From positions 1-64,000 of the forward strand of contig JACAEL010000026.1 in assembly GCA_013388835.1 (NCBI GenBank): 64,000 nucleotides of DNA, read 5' to 3'. The notes beneath the pieces were generated by a model. The model was not told the DNA's origin. It was given only the letters and a program-made list of their open reading frames with translations, and did no database searches. How positions within the stretch are numbered: position 1 is the first letter of the stretch; every line of letters begins with the position of its first letter. The stretch comes from Candidatus Thorarchaeota archaeon (lineage in GTDB: Archaea > Asgardarchaeota > Thorarchaeia > Thorarchaeales > Thorarchaeaceae). Of this stretch, positions 29,562 to 43,345 are shown piece after piece. Made by a program: the position numbers and the translations under genes.

Positions 29562-31892
29562 ATGCAACTGTTTGACACATTCCTAAGCGCAATGACCCTT
29601 CCCGAGCAGCTCATGGTTCTCTCGGTTATTGGAGCTGCAATCGTGAGCTTAGTATATGCGTACTGGCTCTGGGTGGGGGTCAAAGCCAAAGAGACTGGTA
29701 CCGAACAGATGAACTCGGTGTGGAGTGCAATCCGCGAGGGTGCTCTGTCTTACCTAAGGAAGCAGAGACGCTCCATCATCCCGATTCTGCTGGTCCTGAC
29801 CATCATCCTCTTTCTGAGCGTCTATGCGGTGACTCCGACTCAGCAGGCAAGTGACCTGTTTGGTCCTGATGCTCCTTTCATGGTTGCAATGGGGCGGACG
29901 ATTGCTTTCCTCATGGGTGGCACGTTCTCACTGCTTGTCGGACAGCTCGGCATGCGTGTCGCTATCAACTCAAGCGTTAGGGTGGCTCAGGCCACTCGAA
30001 GTAGTGGCGAGCGCGGTGAGAGATACAACAAAGCCCTTGAGATAGCATACCACGGAGGCACCTTCACTGGAATGCTCACAGATGGACTTGGTCTCATGGG
30101 TGGTACTACAATCTTCATTTTCTTTGGTGTCGCTGCCCCTGATGCACTTCTAGGATTCGGTCTTGGCGGCACACTCCTTGCTCTGTTCATGAGAGTCGGT
30201 GGTGGCATATATACCAAGGCGGCAGATGTCGGTGCTGACCTCGTGGGCAAGGTCGAACAGGGACTTCCCGAGGACGACCCAAGGAATGCTGCGGTCATTG
30301 CGGACCTTGTCGGTGACAACGTGGGTGACTGCGCAGGCATGGCGGCCGACATATTCGAGTCATATGAGGTCACCATCGTGTCGGCACTCATCATCGGTAT
30401 CACAATTGCCTACAACACAGGAATGTCCTTCCTTGGTTGGATTGTCTTTCCTCTAGTGGTCCGCGGGGTTGGTGTCATCTCCTCCATGCTTGGGACATAT
30501 GCAGTGGCACTCTGGGGCAAGTTCCTACAAAGAGAAGTGGGTGCAGAACATGCGATGTTCATGTCCTATGAGCTGTCCAGCGCGTTCACGATAGGTGTTT
30601 CTCTTCTCCTATCCTTCTTCTACATGAATGACATTCGATACGGAGTACTGATAGCCATCGGTGTCATGCTTGCCGTGTCCTTCAATCCAATCACGAGCTA
30701 CTTCACCTCCACAGAGAAGCCCCCGGTAAAGGAGATCAAGAAATCGACCGACACCGGCACTGCAACACTGATTCTCTCTGGTTTGGCATCCGGCTACGAG
30801 TCGACTGTCGCAGCACTCCTTGCCATTGTCACGACATTCGTCATGGCTTGGATTCTATTCTTGGGTTCCGACCTGATTATGGTACTCTATGCCATCGCTC
30901 TTGTCGGTATTGGTATGCTGACCCACACTGGCAACAATGTGGCAATGGACTCCTATGGTCCGATCAGTGACAATGCGAACGGAATCGGCGAGCTGTCCCC
31001 AGGCGACTTTGACGACAGTGCGCGTCAGGTGATGGCCGACCTCGATGCGGTCGGTAACACAACGAAGGCGATTACCAAGGGAGTCGCCATTGCGTCCGCA
31101 GTCATTGCAGCAGTCAGTCTCTTCGACAGCTTTGTAGTGTCCGTGAACGAACGACTGGTTGCGATGGGTCAAGCGACCATTGAGCTACTTCTCTCCGACC
31201 CCATCATATTCTCTGGTCTCCTCATTGGTGCGGCGGTCCCGTGGCTATTCTCTGCGTTCAACATCAAGGCCGTTGCACGGGCGGCGGGCCAGATGGTAAC
31301 CGAAGTGCGCCGGCAATTCCGCATTCCTGGCATACTTGAAGGCACACGGAAGCCTGACTATGACAAGGCTGTCGCAATCTCAACTAGCGCAGCACAGAAG
31401 GAGCTCGTCAGTCTGGCTGTGATGACGATCTCAATACCGCTGCTTGTCGGTGTGCTGCTGAACATTGAGGCTCTCGGCGGCTTCCTTGCAGGCATAATCG
31501 TCTCAGGCCAGCTGCTTGCGGTCTTCATGGCCAACACAGGTGCAGCATGGGACAATGCGAAGAAGTCAATCGAAGACGAGCCGCGTGATGCGGAAAAGAA
31601 CCTTGGAAAGGGCTCGGAACGACACAAGGCCAGTGTTGTCGGAGACACAGTCGGAGACCCATTGAAGGACACAGCGGGACCTGCTCTCAACCCGATGATC
31701 AAGGTCATTAACCTCGTGTCCCTCATCGCAGCTCCGATACTTGTGACCTACCGCTTCGGGGCAGACATGGTCATCAACCTTGCTCTGGGTGTAATGGTCG
31801 TCCTGCTTCTGACTGTCGTAATATGGGCGGTCCGGAAGAGCACAAGGTCGTCTGACTTTGGGAAGTCCGCGGTCATGGAAGTTGAGCAGTAG
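29562..31892 (+). CDS. hppA: Membrane-bound proton-pumping pyrophosphatase, K+-independent type
   Basis: 776 residues and about 16 membrane helices, the normal size. Catalytic loops are intact: DVGADLVGKVE, DDPRNAAVIADLVGDNVGDCAGMAADIFESYE (two segments), and the C-terminal GDTVGDPLKDTAGPALNP. It couples PPi hydrolysis to H+ export. Lys502 in GNTTKAITKG occupies the site where K+-dependent enzymes have Ala, so it should be the K+-independent class. Na+ pumping is not expected for that class. A terminator-like double hairpin follows the stop. Confidence 0.96.
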   Translation: MQLFDTFLSAMTLPEQLMVLSVIGAAIVSLVYAYWLWVGVKAKETGTEQMNSVWSAIREGALSYLRKQRRSIIPILLVLTIILFLSVYAVTPTQQASDLFGPDAPFMVAMGRTIAFLMGGTFSLLVGQLGMRVAINSSVRVAQATRSSGERGERYNKALEIAYHGGTFTGMLTDGLGLMGGTTIFIFFGVAAPDALLGFGLGGTLLALFMRVGGGIYTKAADVGADLVGKVEQGLPEDDPRNAAVIADLVGDNVGDCAGMAADIFESYEVTIVSALIIGITIAYNTGMSFLGWIVFPLVVRGVGVISSMLGTYAVALWGKFLQREVGAEHAMFMSYELSSAFTIGVSLLLSFFYMNDIRYGVLIAIGVMLAVSFNPITSYFTSTEKPPVKEIKKSTDTGTATLILSGLASGYESTVAALLAIVTTFVMAWILFLGSDLIMVLYAIALVGIGMLTHTGNNVAMDSYGPISDNANGIGELSPGDFDDSARQVMADLDAVGNTTKAITKGVAIASAVIAAVSLFDSFVVSVNERLVAMGQATIELLLSDPIIFSGLLIGAAVPWLFSAFNIKAVARAAGQMVTEVRRQFRIPGILEGTRKPDYDKAVAISTSAAQKELVSLAVMTISIPLLVGVLLNIEALGGFLAGIIVSGQLLAVFMANTGAAWDNAKKSIEDEPRDAEKNLGKGSERHKASVVGDTVGDPLKDTAGPALNPMIKVINLVSLIAAPILVTYRFGADMVINLALGVMVVLLLTVVIWAVRKSTRSSDFGKSAVMEVEQ

Positions 31893-32491: not shown

Positions 32492-32562
32492 GAACAACTT
32501 TGTTCTCCCTATTCTACTTGAGAAAGATAGAATAGGGGTTTGTTGTCATACCGACTACAACA
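32492..32562. promoter_or_regulatory. Cluster of three perfect inverted repeats upstream of the SNAP-like gene
   Basis: GAACAA-ct-TTGTTC lies at 32492-32505, CCCTATTCTA-N11-TAGAATAGGG at 32507-32537, and TGTTGT-N10-ACAACA at 32541-32562. All lie between the stop of the 96-residue gene (32482) and ATG 32582. The middle one could terminate the upstream transcript (no T tract follows). Together they look like a regulatory region. Confidence 0.5.
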
Positions 32563-32581
32563 TAGAGGAGTCTGGACTAGA

Positions 32582-34366
32582 ATGTCGGGCGAGGATGTTC
32601 GCAGAATCATTGAAGAGGCGACCAAGGAGTCACTCAACCAGTCCTTCACTGAAGCTGGACGCAAGTTTGTAGAGGCTGCGATGGCCAGCGAGCAACGAGG
32701 TGACATGGATGGTGCTGGTCGGCTCTACGGTCAAGCGGCGGATGCGTTCCTGAAGGCGGCAGAGAAATACCGAGCCTCCAAGAGTTACAAGAACGCTGCG
32801 CTCAACATGTGCGCGGCGGGAGACCTGTACTCCGAGCTAGCTGAAGCAGAGTCCGCCATGAAGGCCTATCAGAGAGCGGCTGAAGACCTGTTCTCTGCAT
32901 CGGATGAACACCTCATGTGGGGCGAAGAAGCGGAGACCAAGAAGGGAACCGCACTTGCGGTGGTAGCCTCGATGGTGTACATGATGATCGGCATGGAGTC
33001 CGAGGGTTTCAAGAGAGCGAAGGCCTTCACACTCAAGAACTCTTCGAAGCTGAGATATCCTGCTACAGTGAGGATAAGCGAGATACCACAGATGCTCGAA
33101 GGTGCCATCAGGTCAGTTGACATCTCTGCGTTCTCGTCTGCCGAGACGGCAGCAGTCACTGAGCTCAAGAGTGCCCTGATCAACGCTGGAGCCCAGGACT
33201 TTGTCAAGTATGTTGACAAGGGCCTTGACATGGTGAGGGAGATACTCCGCGGTCAGCTGAAGACTCCGAAGGTCACAACAAGACTGGAGTTGCCCATCGA
33301 TGCGACATTCAAAGAGCCGTTCCCCGTCACAGTGCACATAATCAATGAAGGCGACGGCGATGCCCTGAATCTCTCTGTGGAGTGGTTCTTGGACGACGAA
33401 CTTGTCTTCGTCACAGGTGAGAAGAAGCGTTCCTTCTCGAAGTTGCCGGCTGGGACTGAGTTCAGTCTCGAGATGAAGGCACGAGCTGCCAATCCCGACC
33501 TGATGGGAACCGCCGACTACCAGGTAATGCTCCGTGGTAGCTACCTCGACATGCTGAAGACCGAGTACACACTTCAAGCTGGACCGGGTAGTGTCATCGT
33601 TCGCGACTTCAAGATGACCGAGAAGCTCATGCACGACATCGATGTGAGTGATGGGCGTGTAGGTCTGCTGGGTCAGTCTGTCAGGTCGTCCAAATTGGAG
33701 AAGGCCCCGCTCCTCAGACTCCTGACCGGTCTTGAGTCATCACTTCTCAAGGCACGGGAAGAGATACGCGCCAAGGACCTCGACTCGGCACGAGCAAGAA
33801 TCGGTGTAGTCAACGAAGTGATTGACACTATAGACTCACTTCTGGGAGATGACGCACTGGTTCGGGAGGCTATCGCTCAAAGGGATGCCGAGAAGAAGGC
33901 ATACGCCCGTGCTCTCCTGACGCCTGTGCGAGAGACCCTCTCAAGAGCCATCAGTTCAAGAGAGGATGCGCTCAGGTCTGAGATTGCATCAAGCCTCACC
34001 AGATGGGATGCAGACGCTACGAACAAGATGCATCTTGCACAGGGAGCAAAGAGCGTGTCCACAGGTCTACAGGAAGTGACGAGAGAACTGGAATCGCTCT
34101 ACGCGCAGCTTCCTGCGGCGTCAGGCACCGAGAGCCCTGAAGAGGCTGCCCGGCGCACGAAGATTCGCACATGGGTGGAGTCACTGAAGTCGAAGGTTGC
34201 TGCCATGCAGGTTCAGGCCGCTAGCATGTCATCAAACCAGGCGCTAGTTCCTGTGCCTCGTCCCTCAATCCCCGAGAGAATCGAGCTGGCTCTGCGAGTC
34301 CTGAGAGAAGTGAGTGATGAGGTCGGCAGAACCCTTGAGGCCAAGAGTGCAGAGCTTGGTGTGTAG
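32582..34366 (+). CDS. Alpha-SNAP-like TPR protein with CARDB-like beta domain and coiled coil
   Basis: 594 residues from ATG 32582. Residues about 30-150 form TPR-type helical repeats (AGRLYGQAADAFLKAAEKYRA, then KNAALNMCAAGDLYSELAEA), the style of SNAP/14-3-3-like solenoids. Residues about 225-330 form a CARDB-like beta sandwich (PFPVTVHIINEGDGDALNLS). Residues about 365-590 are charged coiled coil. There is no signal peptide or membrane segment, so it is cytosolic, unlike most CARDB proteins. In eukaryotes alpha-SNAP-type solenoids act on membrane-fusion complexes; here only fold similarity is claimed. Another TPR gene of similar N-terminal style begins at 63815. Confidence 0.65.
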   Translation: MSGEDVRRIIEEATKESLNQSFTEAGRKFVEAAMASEQRGDMDGAGRLYGQAADAFLKAAEKYRASKSYKNAALNMCAAGDLYSELAEAESAMKAYQRAAEDLFSASDEHLMWGEEAETKKGTALAVVASMVYMMIGMESEGFKRAKAFTLKNSSKLRYPATVRISEIPQMLEGAIRSVDISAFSSAETAAVTELKSALINAGAQDFVKYVDKGLDMVREILRGQLKTPKVTTRLELPIDATFKEPFPVTVHIINEGDGDALNLSVEWFLDDELVFVTGEKKRSFSKLPAGTEFSLEMKARAANPDLMGTADYQVMLRGSYLDMLKTEYTLQAGPGSVIVRDFKMTEKLMHDIDVSDGRVGLLGQSVRSSKLEKAPLLRLLTGLESSLLKAREEIRAKDLDSARARIGVVNEVIDTIDSLLGDDALVREAIAQRDAEKKAYARALLTPVRETLSRAISSREDALRSEIASSLTRWDADATNKMHLAQGAKSVSTGLQEVTRELESLYAQLPAASGTESPEEAARRTKIRTWVESLKSKVAAMQVQAASMSSNQALVPVPRPSIPERIELALRVLREVSDEVGRTLEAKSAELGV

Positions 34367-35806: not shown

Positions 35807-36226
35807 CTATGTACGTAGGAGGTCTCCTATCTCCTTCGCGTATTTCCGCATATGCGTGATTGACAGGCCCATGGATGTCAGGTCCTTCGCGGAACCCATG
35901 ATGAGGAAGTCGCCTGCCTGGGAGAGCACGACGAAGCCTTTGCTACCCCTGATGATCACCTCGTATAGCTCGTCTAGGTCGAGCTTCTGAGCCGCCATCT
36001 CTCCCTGAACAAGCAGTGCCGCACTGACTGCCGCCATCAGGTCCGGGTCTGCATCGGACTCCTCCGTTGCGAAATAGGCCAGTTTGACTCCCTGCTTGCT
36101 GACCACTGCGATTGCATCGAGGTCCGTAAGATCAGTGAGCCCCATGAGCAGCTCCACAAGCTGTTTCTCCACTTTCGGGTCGAGGTTGGTAGACAATACG
36201 CGTTCCTCCGAGTCTGCAGAAGACAT
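35807..36226 (-). CDS. Roadblock/LC7 domain protein
   Basis: 139 residues. The single domain has the roadblock pattern: helix (VEKQLVELLMGLTDLTDLDAIAVVS as two blocks), hydrophobic strand with GVKLAYF, helix AAVSAALLVQGEMAAQ, then VIIRGSKGFVVLSQAG and FLIMGSAKDL. Roadblock proteins dimerise and regulate small GTPases of the Rag/MglA type. The frame extends upstream but ATG 36226 follows a TATTAAAG element (36240-36249), so the transcript is nearly leaderless. It sits 58 nt after the gelsolin-like gene, on the same strand. Confidence 0.85.
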   Translation of the reverse strand: MSSADSEERVLSTNLDPKVEKQLVELLMGLTDLTDLDAIAVVSKQGVKLAYFATEESDADPDLMAAVSAALLVQGEMAAQKLDLDELYEVIIRGSKGFVVLSQAGDFLIMGSAKDLTSMGLSITHMRKYAKEIGDLLRT

Positions 36227-36284
36227 TCTGTGCTGATGTCCTTTAATACTTTGACTGCACAGACTGAGCGGATGAGAACCCGCC

Positions 36285-37307
36285 TCACTTCGCCACAAGC
36301 TTGCGTTTGGCTGGCTTCTTTCCTTCGGTGGTGGCACCTGTCGACTCGGTTTCCTCGAGTTCCGACCTGAAGAAGCTTATCAGGTCCCCCAGTCGCTCTC
36401 TCATCTCTGCCTTTATTGGGCTCAATATGGCGTCAGGAGTGCCCTTCAGAAGCTCTATTCCGAGTACGCGTCCATCCTTGACGATCACCCTCGGAATGAA
36501 TCCTTCTGCCATGAAAGTGCCTTCTGGAGGATCGCGGACCTTCTCGAACCTTCGTTCTATCTTCTCCTGACCAAAGACCTTCACCTTGTGCTCGGCAACA
36601 GTGAAGATCTCGTTGTAGACAATCAGAAGTTCCCTCTGGTAGCCCTCCGGAGGGTCGGTGCGCTCAAGCTCCGCAATCATCTCACGAAGCTCTGGTGACA
36701 TCTCAGCCGCTGAAGCAGGTGCAGCCTGAGCCGTTCGAGCTGTGGCTGCAGAAGCTGACGGTACGCTCGTGGACGTGACGGCAGTACGTACCGGTGGCGG
36801 CTGGGGTGGTTGAGTGGTTTCCGCGCTCCTGCTGGGTCCCGTCGAGGTGGCCTGAGGAGGCGACACAGTAGTAGCGGCGCGAGTTGTCGGAGGGGGAGTA
36901 GTGGTCGCCGTTGTGGTTTCTGGTGCTGACGTCGCTGCGGCTGCTGTCTTTGGGGTTGGTGGAGGAGTGCTTGTGGTTGCAGTCTGTCTGGGAGGAGTTG
37001 GTTGTCCGGGCTTCATCACTGGTGTCGCTGCTGTTGAACCGTCCAGTGCAGAGAAGAACGTAGGCGGCTCCTCGCCTTCGTCGACAGCCTTCACTTTGAA
37101 GTGAAATCCGTACTCTGTTCGAAGATTGGTGGCCACACGTGCTCCTACGAACTTCGCTCTGATGTTCGCCTGAGTGCCTTTCCATAGGTATATGCTCTTT
37201 GTCGCATCGTCTACAACACACAGGACTCTCGTCGAGTCTAGACTGTCCTTCGATAGCTCGACCGGTGTGAGTGTCCCATCTTCAGAAACTTCGTACCCGA
37301 GAACCAT
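36285..37307 (-). CDS. Gelsolin-like domain protein with Pro/Thr-rich linker and extra C-terminal domain
   Basis: 340 residues. Residues about 25-88 match a single gelsolin-homology domain: VVDDATKSIYLWKGTQAN, a helix AKFVGARVATNL, and VDEGEEPPTFFSAL, the YVWxG and EGxEPxxF hallmarks. A Pro/Thr/Ala-rich linker (about 90-205) follows. The C-terminal domain (about 215-325) is not recognised; it contains EKVRDPPEGTFMAEGFIPRV. The tail is basic. AGGTG lies 8 nt before ATG 37307. Asgard gelsolins bind eukaryote-like actin; a one-domain version suits a capping, anchoring or regulatory role. No actin gene is in the window. Confidence 0.75.
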   Translation of the reverse strand: MVLGYEVSEDGTLTPVELSKDSLDSTRVLCVVDDATKSIYLWKGTQANIRAKFVGARVATNLRTEYGFHFKVKAVDEGEEPPTFFSALDGSTAATPVMKPGQPTPPRQTATTSTPPPTPKTAAAATSAPETTTATTTPPPTTRAATTVSPPQATSTGPSRSAETTQPPQPPPVRTAVTSTSVPSASAATARTAQAAPASAAEMSPELREMIAELERTDPPEGYQRELLIVYNEIFTVAEHKVKVFGQEKIERRFEKVRDPPEGTFMAEGFIPRVIVKDGRVLGIELLKGTPDAILSPIKAEMRERLGDLISFFRSELEETESTGATTEGKKPAKRKLVAK

Positions 37308-37523: not shown

Positions 37524-38501
37524 TTGGTGTTCAATCTGGTTAGTCACGAAGAGGCAGTCGCTGTCTACCGACAGCGGCTATCAGAAGGTCCTCGTCTGAA
37601 GCCCATCCATTACGTCATGGGCTTTGGCTTCTCCGCAGCACTGATGGGCGTCACCACCTTTGATCTGATGCTCTATGTCAATGTGGTCTTGGACCTCGGT
37701 CTGATGCTGTCGCAGATAGAATCATACACACTGCTGATGCTCTTCGTTTGGGCGGCGGTCTGCCCGCTGTCCGTGTGCGTGATGTACTTGGTGCGGCAAA
37801 GACCGAGCGTGATCTCACTACTTCTCCGTGTCCATCGTTTCTTGAAACGCGGGACTGGTGAGTACTTCCTCTGCCCTGAACCAGGTGGTAGTGACCTCCG
37901 ACAGGTACTCAGAAGGTCTCTGTATGGCTCGGTCCTGGTATCAGGGATTGCGCTCACCGTTCTGAGCTTCCAGCTGATTGTCCCCTCGTCCAGTGAACAG
38001 GTAATGACCTTTGGAGCTGCAGTGATGGTTGTGAGTTTCATAGTCCTGCCACTGACTCTGATGGAGTTTTACTTCGGTCCGTGGCTCTTCAAGGACGCTG
38101 GTCTGTTTCACCTGGACTCACGAGACCGCTCTCTGAGTAATGTCGGTGATGACTTGGAGGACATGTTGGAGTTCTTCGCGGGCATCGACATATTGCTTGT
38201 GTGGCTGGAGATCACACTGAACACTAGTACTTGGGTCGCGCTCCTCATCATAGCCATAGTCCTAGGCCCTCTGTTTGCGATTATCATCAACTTCACTCTG
38301 GTCTTTACAATGATTGAGCGAGACGCGGTGACGTCGATGATCTCCTCGATAATGACCGACCATCAGATGGCCGACATTGTCCGTGACCCGGAGGGAATCC
38401 GGAAGAGGGTGCTTGCTCTAATAGACAAGAGGATGGTCATGCCTGCAGGAGAATCTGACGCACGAGAGGATTGCCATCTGAGTGAGACGGCGGTATCATG
38501 A
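37524..38501 (+). CDS. Uncharacterised polytopic membrane protein, about 325 residues
   Basis: About six hydrophobic segments: around residues 34-54, 66-88, 133-152, 162-185, 225-245 and 246-265. A charged cytosolic loop lies between the second and third, and a charged C-terminal tail (280-325) contains MTDHQMADIVRDPEGIRKRV. I do not recognise the family. TTG 37524 is preceded at about 25 nt by CTTATC, so the transcript may be leaderless. Its 3' end overlaps the convergent thiQ gene by 6 bp. It is divergent from the gelsolin-like gene. Confidence 0.6.
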   Translation: MVFNLVSHEEAVAVYRQRLSEGPRLKPIHYVMGFGFSAALMGVTTFDLMLYVNVVLDLGLMLSQIESYTLLMLFVWAAVCPLSVCVMYLVRQRPSVISLLLRVHRFLKRGTGEYFLCPEPGGSDLRQVLRRSLYGSVLVSGIALTVLSFQLIVPSSSEQVMTFGAAVMVVSFIVLPLTLMEFYFGPWLFKDAGLFHLDSRDRSLSNVGDDLEDMLEFFAGIDILLVWLEITLNTSTWVALLIIAIVLGPLFAIIINFTLVFTMIERDAVTSMISSIMTDHQMADIVRDPEGIRKRVLALIDKRMVMPAGESDAREDCHLSETAVS

Positions 38502-39557
38502 TGGCTTACTGACGACTCTCAACGACCCATCTCTTAGTTGTACGTTGACATGTGCGTCTTCGGAGAGATGCGGCAGTTCTCTCTGGGCCGTCAGACTCGT
38601 CACTCTGATGCCGTTGATGTCAAGCAGCGCACGAGTCATTCCTAGTCCACATGTCAGTGCAACGACTCTGGCTGGCAGTCCGTGTGGGTCGTCTCGGGCG
38701 GTGATTATCACGTCTTCAGGCTTGATGGTCACCGTCACTCTCGTTCCTACAGCTCCGCTGCCGATGGCTTGAAAGACCCCCCCGCATACTTCGACGCTCA
38801 ATCGGCCATTCTTGTAATCCTCCAGCACAACCGCATCCAGCAGATTGCCTCTTCCGACGAAGGAGGCAACAAACGCACTCGAAGGCATGTCGTAAATCTG
38901 TCTGGGCGTGCCTGTCTGGAGGACAACCCCCTCGTTAAGGACTGCCACCCGGTCTGCGATGGCGAACGCCTCCTCTTGACTGTGGGTCACGTATACGGTC
39001 GTGACCCCTAGCCTCTTCTGTATTGATCTAATCTCGGACTGGAGCCTCTCTCGAAGGACCAAGTCAAGTGAGGACAGTGGCTCGTCCAGAAGCAGAAGAC
39101 TTGGCCTTGTAGCAAGGGCTCTTGCGAGGGACACACGCTGCTGCTCGCCTCCGCTGAGCTCTCGTACCCGCCGACCGAGGAGATGTCTTATTTCAAGCAT
39201 GTCGGAGAGTTCGAGCACACGTTCACGTATCTGTGACTCTGTCCATCCTGCAATGTCCGGACCGAATGCGATGTTCTCCATCACGGACATGTTGGGGAAG
39301 AGTGCATGCCACTGAAACACCATCCCAATCCCTCTGGCACGAGGAGGGACGCCCGCCATGTCTCTGCCATCAAACTTTACGTGTCCACTCTCTGCTGAGA
39401 TGAAGCCCGCTATCATGCGCAGTGTTGTGGACTTTCCGGAACCGCTCGGGCCCAGCAGACACATGAGCTCACCATCCTCCACTGTCAGGTCGATGGGGCC
39501 TATTCGAGTCCCATCGGCGAACCTGCGAACCATCCCCTCGACCTCCACTCTCACCAT
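38496..39557 (-). CDS. thiQ: Thiamine ABC transporter ATPase
   Basis: 353 residues. Walker A GPSGSGKST, Q-loop FQWHALFPN, signature LSGGEQQR and Walker B LLLLDEPLSSLD are all intact, with a C-terminal TOBE-like regulatory domain (about 240-353). The subgroup is the Fe3+/spermidine/thiamine ATPases. The thiamine assignment rests on its place in an operon with a ThiB-like binding protein and the neighbouring ThiR regulator. The start ATG overlaps the permease stop (TAATG). Confidence 0.88.
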   Translation of the reverse strand: MVRVEVEGMVRRFADGTRIGPIDLTVEDGELMCLLGPSGSGKSTTLRMIAGFISAESGHVKFDGRDMAGVPPRARGIGMVFQWHALFPNMSVMENIAFGPDIAGWTESQIRERVLELSDMLEIRHLLGRRVRELSGGEQQRVSLARALATRPSLLLLDEPLSSLDLVLRERLQSEIRSIQKRLGVTTVYVTHSQEEAFAIADRVAVLNEGVVLQTGTPRQIYDMPSSAFVASFVGRGNLLDAVVLEDYKNGRLSVEVCGGVFQAIGSGAVGTRVTVTIKPEDVIITARDDPHGLPARVVALTCGLGMTRALLDINGIRVTSLTAQRELPHLSEDAHVNVQLRDGSLRVVSKPS

Positions 39558-41215
39558 TAGAAACGGCTCACCTTCTCGACCCCTGCGACTCTCTCAATCA
39601 ATACGAACGCTGTAATGCAGCACATCACCAACACCAGAGCTGCTGCGCCTGCATGGACGAATTTGCGTACACCGAGATACTGATACACCGCAACGGACAG
39701 TGTGATGTTCTGCGGGAGTGCTATGAAGAGCGTGGCAGACATCTCTCCGATGGCCATGGCGAAAGCGAATGCGGCTCCCACGGCAATACCGGGTGCCAGT
39801 ATGGGAAGTTCCACAAAGAACAGCTTCTGCAGCCGAGATGCGCCAAGGAGGTCAGCTTGGTCCATGATGTCTGGCTCCATTGCCAACAGCGCTATTTCTA
39901 TCGACCTCGTCGTGAAGGGCAGACCCACAATTGTCTGGGCGAAGACTATCAGAAGCCAAGGGTTCTGGCCCAGACCTAGTGGTACTGCAATGGCCTGCAT
40001 CAGACCGTAGGCGACCGTGATTGAGGACACTCCAAGCGGTAACATCACTAGTGCAGACGCGAGGGTGCCGGAGCGTGATGTCCTCCCCCTTCGCACATAC
40101 GCAAGCGGGAATGCCAGCAGTACTGCGAACAGCGTGGAGATGGATGCATAGAACAGGGAGTTGATGAGCGGGAGCAGACCTCCTCCAGTACCGAACACCA
40201 GCAGATTCTGAAGCCCTTCGAGTGTATATGTCCTCCGGACTGAGTCGTACACTGCGGAGTGAAACGTTGAAACGACTGGACCAGCAACCAGCACGACTAT
40301 CGCTGCTGAGTAGAGTACAACAAGCGTTCTCTGTGGTAGGGTCAAGTCTGACAGGTGCACGGTCCTGATTGAGCCCACAGTCATTGCCTGCTGCTCGTTC
40401 CTTGTCGCATAGGAATAGGCCACTGCGATGCTGGTGGTCACGAAAGCCTGCATCAGCACTAGCGCACTGGCCTCTGGATAGTCGAACGTTCTGAATGCGT
40501 TCCATATCTGAACCTCGACTGTCATGAAGTTGCCCTCTCCCAGTGCGAGCACAATGGGGAAAGACAGGAAACAGAATAGAAAGACTAGGAGTGAGGATGC
40601 CATGAGCGAGTGTGATATGTGTGGCAGTACTATCCGCCTAAGCCTCTGAAGTGGCGATGCGCCCAGTGCCTCAGCGACATCCTCCAGCTCGGGGGGCAAC
40701 CTTTGAAGAGATGAGGAGATTACCAGCAGGACTATTGGGATGTTGTAGAAGGCGTGGGCGAGCACTATGCCAAGAGGACCTGATGCAAGGTTGATCACGG
40801 ACGAAGTAGTGCCCAATATGGCCCCAAGAGCTGAGTCAACTATACCGTATGCTCCGAACATCCTGAGAAAGCCTATTACCACTGCAATCGGGGGCAGAAC
40901 GAAGGGGACTATGATAGTTGCACGCACCAGCGACTTTGCGCGGAAGTCGAGACGAGCAAGGATGAACGCGCCCGGCAGGCCGATGGCAAGTGTGAGTGCT
41001 GTACTCACGAGTGCCTGAGCAAATGTGAACTGCAGGGTCCTGTGAGTTACAACTGACCCGAGGGTGTCTGTGAGTGATAATGGCCACTGTGGAACCAGCC
41101 CAGCAAAGGTCACGTACGCGACAGGATAGAGGATGAAGACGACCAACACGGTCAACGGGATGACTAGCACCCACTGTGCTGTATGTGTTGGTCGCAAGTG
41201 AATCAGCACACTCAT
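39557..41215 (-). CDS. thiP: Thiamine ABC transporter permease, fused double permease
   Basis: About 552 residues with some 12 membrane helices in two homologous halves. Each half has an EAA-type loop (DVAEALGASPLQRLRRIVLPHI in the first; DQADLLGASRLQKLFFVELPIL in the second, quoted without flanks), the pattern of ThiP and FbpB. ATG 41215 overlaps the thiB stop (ATGA), showing translational coupling; the upstream in-frame codons are inside thiB. Confidence 0.88.
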   Translation of the reverse strand: MSVLIHLRPTHTAQWVLVIPLTVLVVFILYPVAYVTFAGLVPQWPLSLTDTLGSVVTHRTLQFTFAQALVSTALTLAIGLPGAFILARLDFRAKSLVRATIIVPFVLPPIAVVIGFLRMFGAYGIVDSALGAILGTTSSVINLASGPLGIVLAHAFYNIPIVLLVISSSLQRLPPELEDVAEALGASPLQRLRRIVLPHISHSLMASSLLVFLFCFLSFPIVLALGEGNFMTVEVQIWNAFRTFDYPEASALVLMQAFVTTSIAVAYSYATRNEQQAMTVGSIRTVHLSDLTLPQRTLVVLYSAAIVVLVAGPVVSTFHSAVYDSVRRTYTLEGLQNLLVFGTGGGLLPLINSLFYASISTLFAVLLAFPLAYVRRGRTSRSGTLASALVMLPLGVSSITVAYGLMQAIAVPLGLGQNPWLLIVFAQTIVGLPFTTRSIEIALLAMEPDIMDQADLLGASRLQKLFFVELPILAPGIAVGAAFAFAMAIGEMSATLFIALPQNITLSVAVYQYLGVRKFVHAGAAALVLVMCCITAFVLIERVAGVEKVSRF

Positions 41216-42336
41216 TGAGTCATGATGATGTCCCACTCGTCGAGCCATTGAGTGAGGTTGGCACGTATCTCTGTCGCTGACAAGTACTGATTCAGGTCAG
41301 TGACATCCTCTGGGTGCAGCGCATATTGGAACGCTTCCGGCAGCGTGACCCCCGGACTGACAGGGAACATCCACTGGTTGAGTGCTATCTGCTGTTGTAC
41401 CGGCAGAGTCAGGCAGTAGTCTACGAATGCCCTTGCCAGTCCCGGGTTCGGACCGTTCTTCACAACTCCAACTCCCTCGACCTGAAGCCAAGCGTAACTG
41501 CTGTTGTTGTATACAAACGGAGCGACTCCAATGTTGGGCGCTGACCCCGTGTAGTATGCGGAGTAGGCTGGGTCGGTGCCGTATGACACAAGCATATGTC
41601 TTGTTGGGTCGTCATCCCACTTGGACCATGCTTCTGACCAGCCCTGTTGAACGTCTATCTTTGATTTCACCTGAGTCCACCATTCAGTCCAATCCTTCCC
41701 AAGTATCTTTTCATATGCTGCAATCTGACTGAGCATGAAGGCCAGACCCGGGCTGCTCAGGTGTGGGTTCTCTGTCACGAGTGCAGACGCCATATCAGGA
41801 GCGGCCAGTGCTTCAAAGGTCAGGTTAGCAAGAACAGGGTGGGTTGTGGTGTTCATGTCGGCAAGAGAGTATACGACTGCAATTATGCCAAAGTCGAATG
41901 GAGTCAGATAGTGATCCGGACTCAGTGCGTTCACCAGTCTGGTGTCTATCAGCTCAACACCTGTCGCATTGTACGGTTCGAGGACTGCCCTTGCGGCCTC
42001 CTGCATCACAAGCACGTTGTCAATCCCTATCACGACGTCCGCCACCGGTTTCGAAGCCTCAGCATTCAAACGTGCCACAATGCCACTGGCATCCGTCTGC
42101 AGTCTGACTATCTCTATGTCCACCCCATGTGTCAGCTCAAATTGACCGAAGACGCGCTCATCGATTGTGCTCGGGTCGTCTCCCCATGCCATGAAGCTGT
42201 CATAGGTGTAGACATACATCTTGTGCTTGGGCCATGACCAGATTGCAAAACCGGCCACTGCAATTATGATCACTGCAACAATAGCCCCCACTGTGATCCG
42301 TGGGTCTCGTCTCTTGGTGTACTGTGGGATGCTCAT
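41212..42336 (-). CDS. thiB: Thiamine-binding protein, membrane-tethered
   Basis: 374 residues from ATG 42336, with AAGGAG 7 nt upstream. An N-terminal signal anchor (about 14-34: ITVGAIVAVIIIAVAGFAIW) is followed by the ThiB-like domain: YVYTYDSFMAWG, ARLNAEASKPVADVVIGIDN, and FDFGIIAVVYS. It captures thiamine or a phosphate ester outside the cell and delivers it to ThiPQ. The promoter region has a ThiR-type palindrome at the predicted start site, so expression should drop when thiamine is plentiful. Confidence 0.87.
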   Translation of the reverse strand: MSIPQYTKRRDPRITVGAIVAVIIIAVAGFAIWSWPKHKMYVYTYDSFMAWGDDPSTIDERVFGQFELTHGVDIEIVRLQTDASGIVARLNAEASKPVADVVIGIDNVLVMQEAARAVLEPYNATGVELIDTRLVNALSPDHYLTPFDFGIIAVVYSLADMNTTTHPVLANLTFEALAAPDMASALVTENPHLSSPGLAFMLSQIAAYEKILGKDWTEWWTQVKSKIDVQQGWSEAWSKWDDDPTRHMLVSYGTDPAYSAYYTGSAPNIGVAPFVYNNSSYAWLQVEGVGVVKNGPNPGLARAFVDYCLTLPVQQQIALNQWMFPVSPGVTLPEAFQYALHPEDVTDLNQYLSATEIRANLTQWLDEWDIIMTQ

Positions 42337-42349
42337 GAACAGTCTCCTT

Positions 42350-42375
42350 ATAAGGCCATTATACAACGGCCTTAT
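42350..42375. promoter_or_regulatory. Palindromic operator, probable ThiR-binding site
   Basis: ATAAGGCC-N10-GGCCTTAT is a perfect 8-bp inverted repeat. It lies between divergent thiB and thiR. A TATATAT element at 42389-42396 reads in both directions; for thiB it places the transcription start near 42367, the centre of the repeat, so a bound regulator would block initiation. For thiR the repeat lies upstream of the TATA box. Confidence 0.75.
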
Positions 42376-42388
42376 GATACCAGACAGC

Positions 42389-42397
42389 GATATATAC
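42389..42397. promoter_or_regulatory. Shared TATA box for thiB and thiR
   Basis: The near-symmetric TATATA core lies about 25 nt from the palindrome centre on the thiB side and about 30 nt from the thiR GTG start on the other. thiR may thus be leaderless or have a very short leader. Confidence 0.5.
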
Positions 42398-42421
42398 CTT
42401 TTCTTCAGGAGAGTAGCAGTT

Positions 42422-43345
42422 GTGAGACCTCCATGTGAGATTGTCCAGAAAGAACTCCTTCCCCTTGTGAGGTCATGCGTTGCCCGTGCTCTCAAGGACC
42501 ATGGCCTCTCTCAGAATGAGATTGGGGCAAGGATGCGAGTGACACAGGCTGCTGTCAGCAAGTACCTTTCGGGCCCGCTTGCAGAAGGACCATTGTATGC
42601 AGAAGTCGAGGGGTTAATCGAGCAGGTCACGGAAGACCTGCTTGAGGGACGTCCCGAGTCCGATGTCATCGACCATCTGTGCCGGGTCTGCATGGAACTC
42701 AGGATTGGTTCCGTAGTGTGTCGCCGGCACAGGGAGACTCACAGGAGTCTGAAGGAGGAAGACTGTCAGGCTTGCGCGCAACTTCTCGGTGGCGAACGTG
42801 AGACGTTTCAGAGTCGATTCTCGCTGCTATCAGAGATGAGAGTGGCCATGGAGACCATCGAGGGTTGTTCTGTGTTCCATAGGCTCATTCCGGAAGTGCG
42901 GTCGAACTTGGTAGCATGTGACTCCAAGGCGAAGGAGTCGCGGGATGTCGTGGGGATACCGGGCAGGATTACCGTTGTTAGAGGTCGAGTACGAGCACTG
43001 GCATCACCTGAGTACGGTGCGTCAGGTCACACTGCCAAGATGCTACTGTGGGCCAGATCGTTCTATCCCCGTGTGCATGCATGTCTCGCGATAAGTGGCA
43101 AGGATGAGACTGTCAGAGCTGCACAGGACTCGGGTTTTCCAGTTGAGCGAATTGCGTCGCCGGCGGGTGCGGTGGAGGAGATAATCGAAGCTGCAAGACT
43201 GACAACAAACCGTCGTGCAGACTACACATCAGTGCATTTGCCGGGGGGACTGGGTATCGAACCCATACTGTACCTGTTCGGTCCCTCGGCCGTCGAGCTG
43301 GCGCAGCGGGCAGTGATCGTGGCCGAGAGGCTTAGCCAGTCCTAG
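42422..43345 (+). CDS. thiR: ThiR-type transcriptional regulator (HTH plus ThiN domain)
   Basis: 308 residues from GTG 42422; the frame extends upstream but crosses the operator. An N-terminal helix-turn-helix (LSQNEIGARMRVTQAAVSKYLSG, about residues 29-51, quoted in two overlapping parts as LSQNEIGARM and VTQAAVSKYL) is followed by a cysteine-bearing segment (CRVC, VVCRRH, DCQAC) and a ThiN domain (about 150-305; GIPGRITVVRGRVRAL). ThiN is thiamine-phosphate synthase in other proteins and serves as a thiamine-phosphate sensor in archaeal ThiR. Divergence from thiBPQ and the palindrome fit autogenous thiamine control. Confidence 0.87.
   Translation: MRPPCEIVQKELLPLVRSCVARALKDHGLSQNEIGARMRVTQAAVSKYLSGPLAEGPLYAEVEGLIEQVTEDLLEGRPESDVIDHLCRVCMELRIGSVVCRRHRETHRSLKEEDCQACAQLLGGERETFQSRFSLLSEMRVAMETIEGCSVFHRLIPEVRSNLVACDSKAKESRDVVGIPGRITVVRGRVRALASPEYGASGHTAKMLLWARSFYPRVHACLAISGKDETVRAAQDSGFPVERIASPAGAVEEIIEAARLTTNRRADYTSVHLPGGLGIEPILYLFGPSAVELAQRAVIVAERLSQS

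Follow-up and report, generated by a model that had tools for sequence, protein, structure and literature searches.

Gelsolins are proteins that control actin, roadblock proteins belong among the regulators of small GTPase switches, and Asgard archaea are related to the ancestors of complex cells. How small-GTPase control of actin originated in eukaryotes is an open question, and the gene pair described here bears on it. Among the gelsolins of Asgard archaea, PMC9433394 treats ProGel as the equivalent of cofilin and 2DGel as calcium-controlled, and names a further class, 1DGelX, with two members in MK-D1 and three in Loki GC14_75. PMC6393860 lists a villin/gelsolin-related Asgard cluster, cls.008013 (Lokiarch_14920), in 7 of 8 Asgard genomes. 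Roadblocks appear in PMC10933270 as dimeric platforms for small GTPases, and Odin-RBLC7 is described there as well.

A gelsolin-X gene followed by a roadblock gene

The window is a 64,000-nt stretch of a contig of a Candidatus Thorarchaeota archaeon (JACAEL010000026.1, assembly GCA_013388835.1), and its minus strand carries a gene of the gelsolin-X type with a roadblock gene behind it:

36285..37307, minus strand: 1DGelX gene, 340 aa, made up of a gelsolin domain, a Pro/Thr/Ala linker and an X domain
37032..37307, minus strand: gelsolin domain, residues 1-92, from PF00626, PDB 7c2f and profile matches to gelsolins and villins
36705..37037, minus strand: low-complexity Pro/Thr/Ala linker, residues 91-201, with three PPP motifs, from composition
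36288..36704, minus strand: X domain, residues 202-340, from alignments and an AlphaFold model
36227..36284, minus strand: intergenic gap of 58 nt between the gelsolin-X and roadblock genes, from the ORF ends
35807..36226, minus strand: roadblock/LC7 gene, 139 aa (ATG at 36226, stop at 35807), from Robl_LC7

A preliminary description of this DNA had pointed to YLWKG and EGEEPPTFF as gelsolin hallmarks, and these are residues 40-44 and 77-85 of the gelsolin-X ORF. Its assignment of the N-terminal domain to the gelsolins is borne out at the sequence level, where homology to gelsolins is significant and beyond chance and nothing speaks against a gelsolin fold, which is predicted from that homology. 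The Pfam Gelsolin model scores 20.8 bits with the whole 340-aa protein and 24.5 bits with the isolated domain (cut-off 21). The best match in a PDB sequence search is 7c2f (E 2.3e-13 to 2.5e-13, 53 bits over 88 residues), which we take to be an Asgard ProGel, a single gelsolin/cofilin-like domain; the next are the 2DGels of Thor, Heim and Loki, then eukaryotic gelsolins. Nearest by sequence are 7c2f and the second domain of Thor 2DGel3, and a profile built from 20 diverse Asgard members retrieves from the PDB almost only structures of the gelsolin, villin and severin family.

With one gelsolin domain and an unrelated C-terminal part, the 340-aa protein has the makeup that defines 1DGelX, and it does not have the two domains of the calcium-regulated 2DGel type. 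Orthologues, nearly all from Candidatus Thorarchaeota, share 76-86% identity over the gelsolin domain. Five matches to the gelsolin domain occur in the genome itself (3.01 Mb, 97.6% complete), located in the gelsolin-X gene, in two small ORFs (90 and 99 aa) and in a two-domain ORF of 239 aa; contig C20 holds a 2DGel-like gene distinct from gelsolin-X. Purifying selection acts on both genes of the pair, as synonymous change is far in excess of amino-acid change in each of the three parts compared (pS 0.69-0.96 versus pN 0.10-0.20).

The acidic Asp and Glu of the type II calcium site, which mark the calcium-regulated 2DGels, are not found together in this domain. The Glu ligand position (51) is non-acidic in all 70 gelsolin-X sequences, and the adjoining position 50 is Arg or Lys in each of the 40 distant ones. 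The Asp ligand position, which a hairpin two residues longer places in column 27, has no acidic residue in any of the 30 Thorarchaeota sequences and is acidic in 23 of 40 distant members. Calcium control through the type II site is therefore unlikely in Thorarchaeota, and, given the acidic Asp position, calcium binding is conceivable in those 23 distant members.

The long Pro/Thr linker of the preliminary description is indeed present, as 111 residues of which 26% are Thr, 22% Ala and 21% Pro. Among Thorarchaeota orthologues it varies in both length and sequence, whereas the gelsolin and X domains on either side are conserved. PPP motifs occur in 30 of 30 Thorarchaeota linkers and in few distant ones, where Pro often makes up 7-14%, so a profilin-recruiting role would be lineage-specific at best. 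Given the rarity of PPP in distant members, we rejected the poly-proline linker as a general recruiter of profilin.

The X domain consists of a helix, three strands, two strands and a long helix, in that order, followed by a basic tail ending in KLVAK. These last five residues are identical in every aligned full-length Thorarchaeota orthologue and are absent from the alignment of members outside Thorarchaeota. An AlphaFold model built on 53 diverse sequences has a mean pLDDT of 88.9 (85-89 across five models) and supersedes an earlier, unstable one from 28 close sequences (five models, 43-80); its pTM is only 0.64, so the overall packing of X is less sure than its local structure. By sequence X has no Pfam match and no match in the PDB. 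Foldseek comparison of two models with the PDB and one with a viral library returned nothing at E <= 0.001 (best E 0.24 and 0.095, respectively), with low TM-scores, and one scan of viral contigs found no relatives. Candidate identities were also discarded: profile comparison lent no support to a second gelsolin domain, and hhalign gave probabilities of 1.2 and 0.7 per cent for ARPC4 and roadblock, the ARPC4 query being an approximate sequence. The C-terminal domain had been called possibly new and a structure prediction proposed as the check; the resulting model is confident and resembles no PDB or viral fold, but the class to which the protein belongs had already been named 1DGelX (PMC9433394). 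Judged against the PDB and the viral library, the modelled fold of X may be a novelty, and X is a widespread Asgard domain to which no family, fold or function is assigned.

The partner gene begins 58 nt after the gelsolin-X gene, exactly as first described. Its product belongs to the roadblock family (Robl_LC7, E 6e-12, 45.6 bits, cut-off 23) and scores only 38 bits against the solved roadblocks 7f8m and 9jue. There are 13 roadblock-domain matches in the genome, 10 of them above the family cut-off, and the paired roadblock stands apart from them, scoring 245.8 bits versus 42 for the next paralogue.

Conservation of the pair across Asgard archaea

The two genes are adjacent and co-directional in all 30 readable Thorarchaeota loci; left out were one locus with a run of N (L014), two at contig edges (L035 and L038) and a stand-alone paralogue (L037). 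The gap between the genes ranges from 13 to 146 nt across 29 of these loci. The next gene in the window, an aminotransferase, is displaced in L016, L020 and L034, and the pair is intact there. We use the codes of the search tool for families, in which f1 is Thorarchaeota. The pair is adjacent in 12 Asgard families (f1, f4, f5, f7, f8, f11, f12, f18, f19, f20, f26 and f28); in f26 and f4 the gap, counted from the end of one coding region to the start of the next, can be as short as 6 nt. Because the same two families adjoin across these 12 lineages, their co-location is not a matter of chance, and the conservation of the pairing is well supported. One f26 roadblock matches the 94-residue chain 7f8f, presumably Odin-RBLC7, over its full length (180 bits), and f26 is on that ground taken as Odinarchaeia; f20 we infer, for naming only, to be Lokiarchaeum-like.

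Of 40 loci outside Thorarchaeota, 17 have a roadblock gene on the same strand no more than 250 nt 3' of gelsolin-X, and two have it convergently adjacent; a further 30 loci added six pairs, in f5, f7, f8 and f11. Among the neighbours at the 40 loci, roadblock is the gene family that reaches most Asgard families (22 loci in 9 families), followed by NAD(P)HX dehydratase/epimerase (19 loci in 6 families). Other families have gelsolin-X without an adjacent roadblock, for example f13, f14, f21 and f27, and in f21 and f27, where the pair is split, the profile of this roadblock matches strongly elsewhere in the genome. In a roadblock tree 26 adjacent roadblocks form one group (support 100/99), apart from paralogues sampled from two genomes and with the paired roadblocks of f5, f7, f8 and f11 left out; the roadblocks lying 0.6-0.9 kb from gelsolin-X in f16 and f17 fall outside it. 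In one Odinarchaeia genome the paired roadblock again outscores the next paralogue, 105.6 versus 71.5. The simplest history is an old pair whose linkage was lost several times, and the pair likely originated in the last Asgard ancestor, as read from a tree that is unrooted and in places shallow.

A Thorarchaeota-only profile finds the X domain in 183 of 228 Asgard genomes (55 of 62 genera), and a broader profile has matches in 17 of 20 genomes, mostly ones in which X had been weak or missed, including the earlier missed family f9. The ORF that carries it starts with a gelsolin domain at 40 of 40 representative distant loci and at 29 of the 30 further loci, the exception being a 215-aa ORF in L137. 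The gelsolin-X tree contains at least one more paralogue class, in which X is shorter and never paired with roadblock. Loci L151-L161 represent such a second class, with an X that does not have the long C-terminal helix and a gene that never adjoins roadblock.

Some lineages have other genes in the same run. In f20 the order gelsolin-X, roadblock, AbrB/ACT, coiled coil and actin-family gene is co-directional in 17 loci (including L100, L102 and L103, completed by a second stretch), with about 2.5 kb between roadblock and AbrB/ACT in most. The last gene of this array matches actin with E 3.5e-44, solved actins with E 2.3e-36 and eukaryotic actin with about 128 bits; at L170:1991-3184, as in its f20 equivalents, it is preceded by the coiled-coil and AbrB/ACT genes and lies downstream of the pair. 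The Odinarchaeia locus is a tight run on one strand, in the order Ras-family GTPase gene, YjeF, gelsolin-X and roadblock. The first of these genes (L071:1178-2860) encodes a 561-aa protein that begins with a Ras-family GTPase domain and continues into a long C-terminal part. YjeF, the NAD(P)HX dehydratase/epimerase, recurs near gelsolin-X in f16-f20 and f26 (L079, L085, L089, L099 and others). The actin-family gene was found at the locus in f20 only; the 5-8 kb covered per locus in Thorarchaeota, Odinarchaeia and others showed none. Neither an actin-family nor a Ras GTPase gene adjoins the pair in the Thorarchaeota loci compared, and among the window genes scanned no small GTPase gene was noticed beside it.

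Elsewhere in the window, positions 38496-43345 hold a thiamine-transporter-like ABC operon (ATPase, permease and solute-binding protein), whose divergently oriented neighbour encodes a ThiN domain and an HTH; the operon is syntenic upstream of the pair in Thorarchaeota. At 32540-34366 a protein of 608 aa, weakly similar to SNAP/MIT and CARDB, adjoins the aminotransferase and is conserved in Thorarchaeota, and 29562-31892 encodes a membrane H+-pyrophosphatase (PF03030, E 3e-224).

A model of the pairing and its rivals

The roles described for ProGel and 2DGel (PMC9433394) and for roadblock platforms (PMC10933270) together lead to a model in which roadblock, X and actin are connected. The gelsolin domain of 1DGelX would bind actin, probably without calcium control and thus in the manner of ProGel and not of 2DGel, and the flexible linker would join it to X. 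X would dock on the neighbouring roadblock, a predicted dimeric platform that would bind or regulate Ras-like small GTPases, and the state of the GTPase, or membrane recruitment through the roadblock, would place or switch the actin regulator. The model builds on the domain identities, the conserved pair and its phylogenetic depth, the actin-family and Ras-type GTPase genes linked to it in one lineage each, and the missing Glu ligand; from these we infer that the domain binds actin, that X contacts roadblock, that a GTPase provides the input and which way control runs. Families in which the two genes are apart, the unpaired paralogue class with a shorter X, the acidic Asp position of 23 distant members and the window itself, where no small GTPase gene was noticed beside the pair among the genes scanned, count against it. 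Gelsolin-X and roadblock probably act jointly in directing the actin skeleton; the model as a whole, in which an old operon ties a roadblock platform that regulates GTPases to an actin regulator probably independent of calcium, has, in our estimate, a probability of about 0.5. A bolder version, in which X is a new fold held in a stable complex with the roadblock dimer and the Asgard ancestor already had a GTPase-controlled, calcium-independent actin regulator, is tentative. The cytoskeleton or trafficking module of the preliminary description survives as a non-chance co-location, joined in two lineages by an actin-family gene or a Ras GTPase gene; the cytoskeletal or trafficking action itself is better put forward as a suggestion.

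X could have a binding target other than roadblock, and the two proteins may share a pathway and an operon and never touch: X would then be an independent localisation or cargo-binding domain, for instance one whose long C-terminal helix and basic KLVAK tail bind membrane, with the roadblock serving a different GTPase complex. We hold this arrangement to be possible if somewhat doubtful. It accords with the loss of linkage in several families that retain both gelsolin-X and roadblock, with the presence of X in the unpaired paralogue class and with the invariance of KLVAK in aligned Thorarchaeota orthologues, as expected of a tail with its own binding role. However, that tail is confined to Thorarchaeota, and adjacency over 12 families, very short gaps and adjacent roadblocks that form one orthologous set are typical of partners in a complex.

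The contact model also has to be weighed against readings that give the neighbourhood a narrower or no meaning. The actin-family gene of the f20 array, co-directional in its 17 loci and similar to eukaryotic actin, suggests that the gelsolin domain might act mainly on a divergent actin-related protein, with gelsolin-X, roadblock and that protein making up a dedicated filament or polarity system; its restriction to f20 speaks against such a system, which we hold to be improbable. Less probable still is that the co-location is a functionally meaningless leftover of shared gene order. The upstream ABC-transporter genes are syntenic in Thorarchaeota too, and YjeF often lies nearby in f16-f20 and f26, as such a leftover would have it, but the transporter genes do not recur outside Thorarchaeota whereas roadblock does, and the pair outlasts displacement of the next gene in three loci. 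If the bolder version with a stable complex of X and roadblock is true, a direct link from Ras-type GTPase to actin would predate eukaryotes, and some lineages would have added an actin-related protein of their own. A pairing of actin regulator and GTPase platform that Asgard lineages of the Thor, Odin and Loki type share with others is a concrete, testable candidate for early control of this sort.

Comparison with known gelsolins and roadblocks

The architecture of gelsolin plus X is not new, being that of the Asgard 1DGelX class (PMC9433394), to which the window protein corresponds in having one gelsolin domain and an extra part X. The accessible text of that paper assigns X to no family or fold and mentions no roadblock partner. 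A search of open-access Asgard literature, not exhaustive and of papers available in part, found no report of the gelsolin-X/roadblock pairing. The cluster cls.008013 (PMC6393860), a divergent and near-universal Asgard gelsolin relative, may be the gelsolin-X family, as compared by description alone.

Among structures, the ProGel chain 7c2f is the best sequence match of the gelsolin domain and likewise has no acidic residue at the Glu calcium-ligand position, but it is a single domain of 94 residues and, unlike gelsolin-X, has neither X nor linker. The Asgard 2DGels of Thor, Heim and Loki resemble gelsolin-X as actin regulators of the gelsolin fold, and the Loki and Heim forms also have C-terminal extensions. 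They have two domains and, according to PMC9433394, conserved calcium ligands, whereas gelsolin-X has one domain and the Glu ligand is missing. The partner belongs by sequence to the same roadblock family as MglB, LAMTOR2/3, Thor-RB and MKD1-RB (PMC10933270), and like them would be expected to dimerise and form a small-GTPase platform; it differs from all of these in belonging to a distinct subfamily, defined by its pairing with gelsolin-X.
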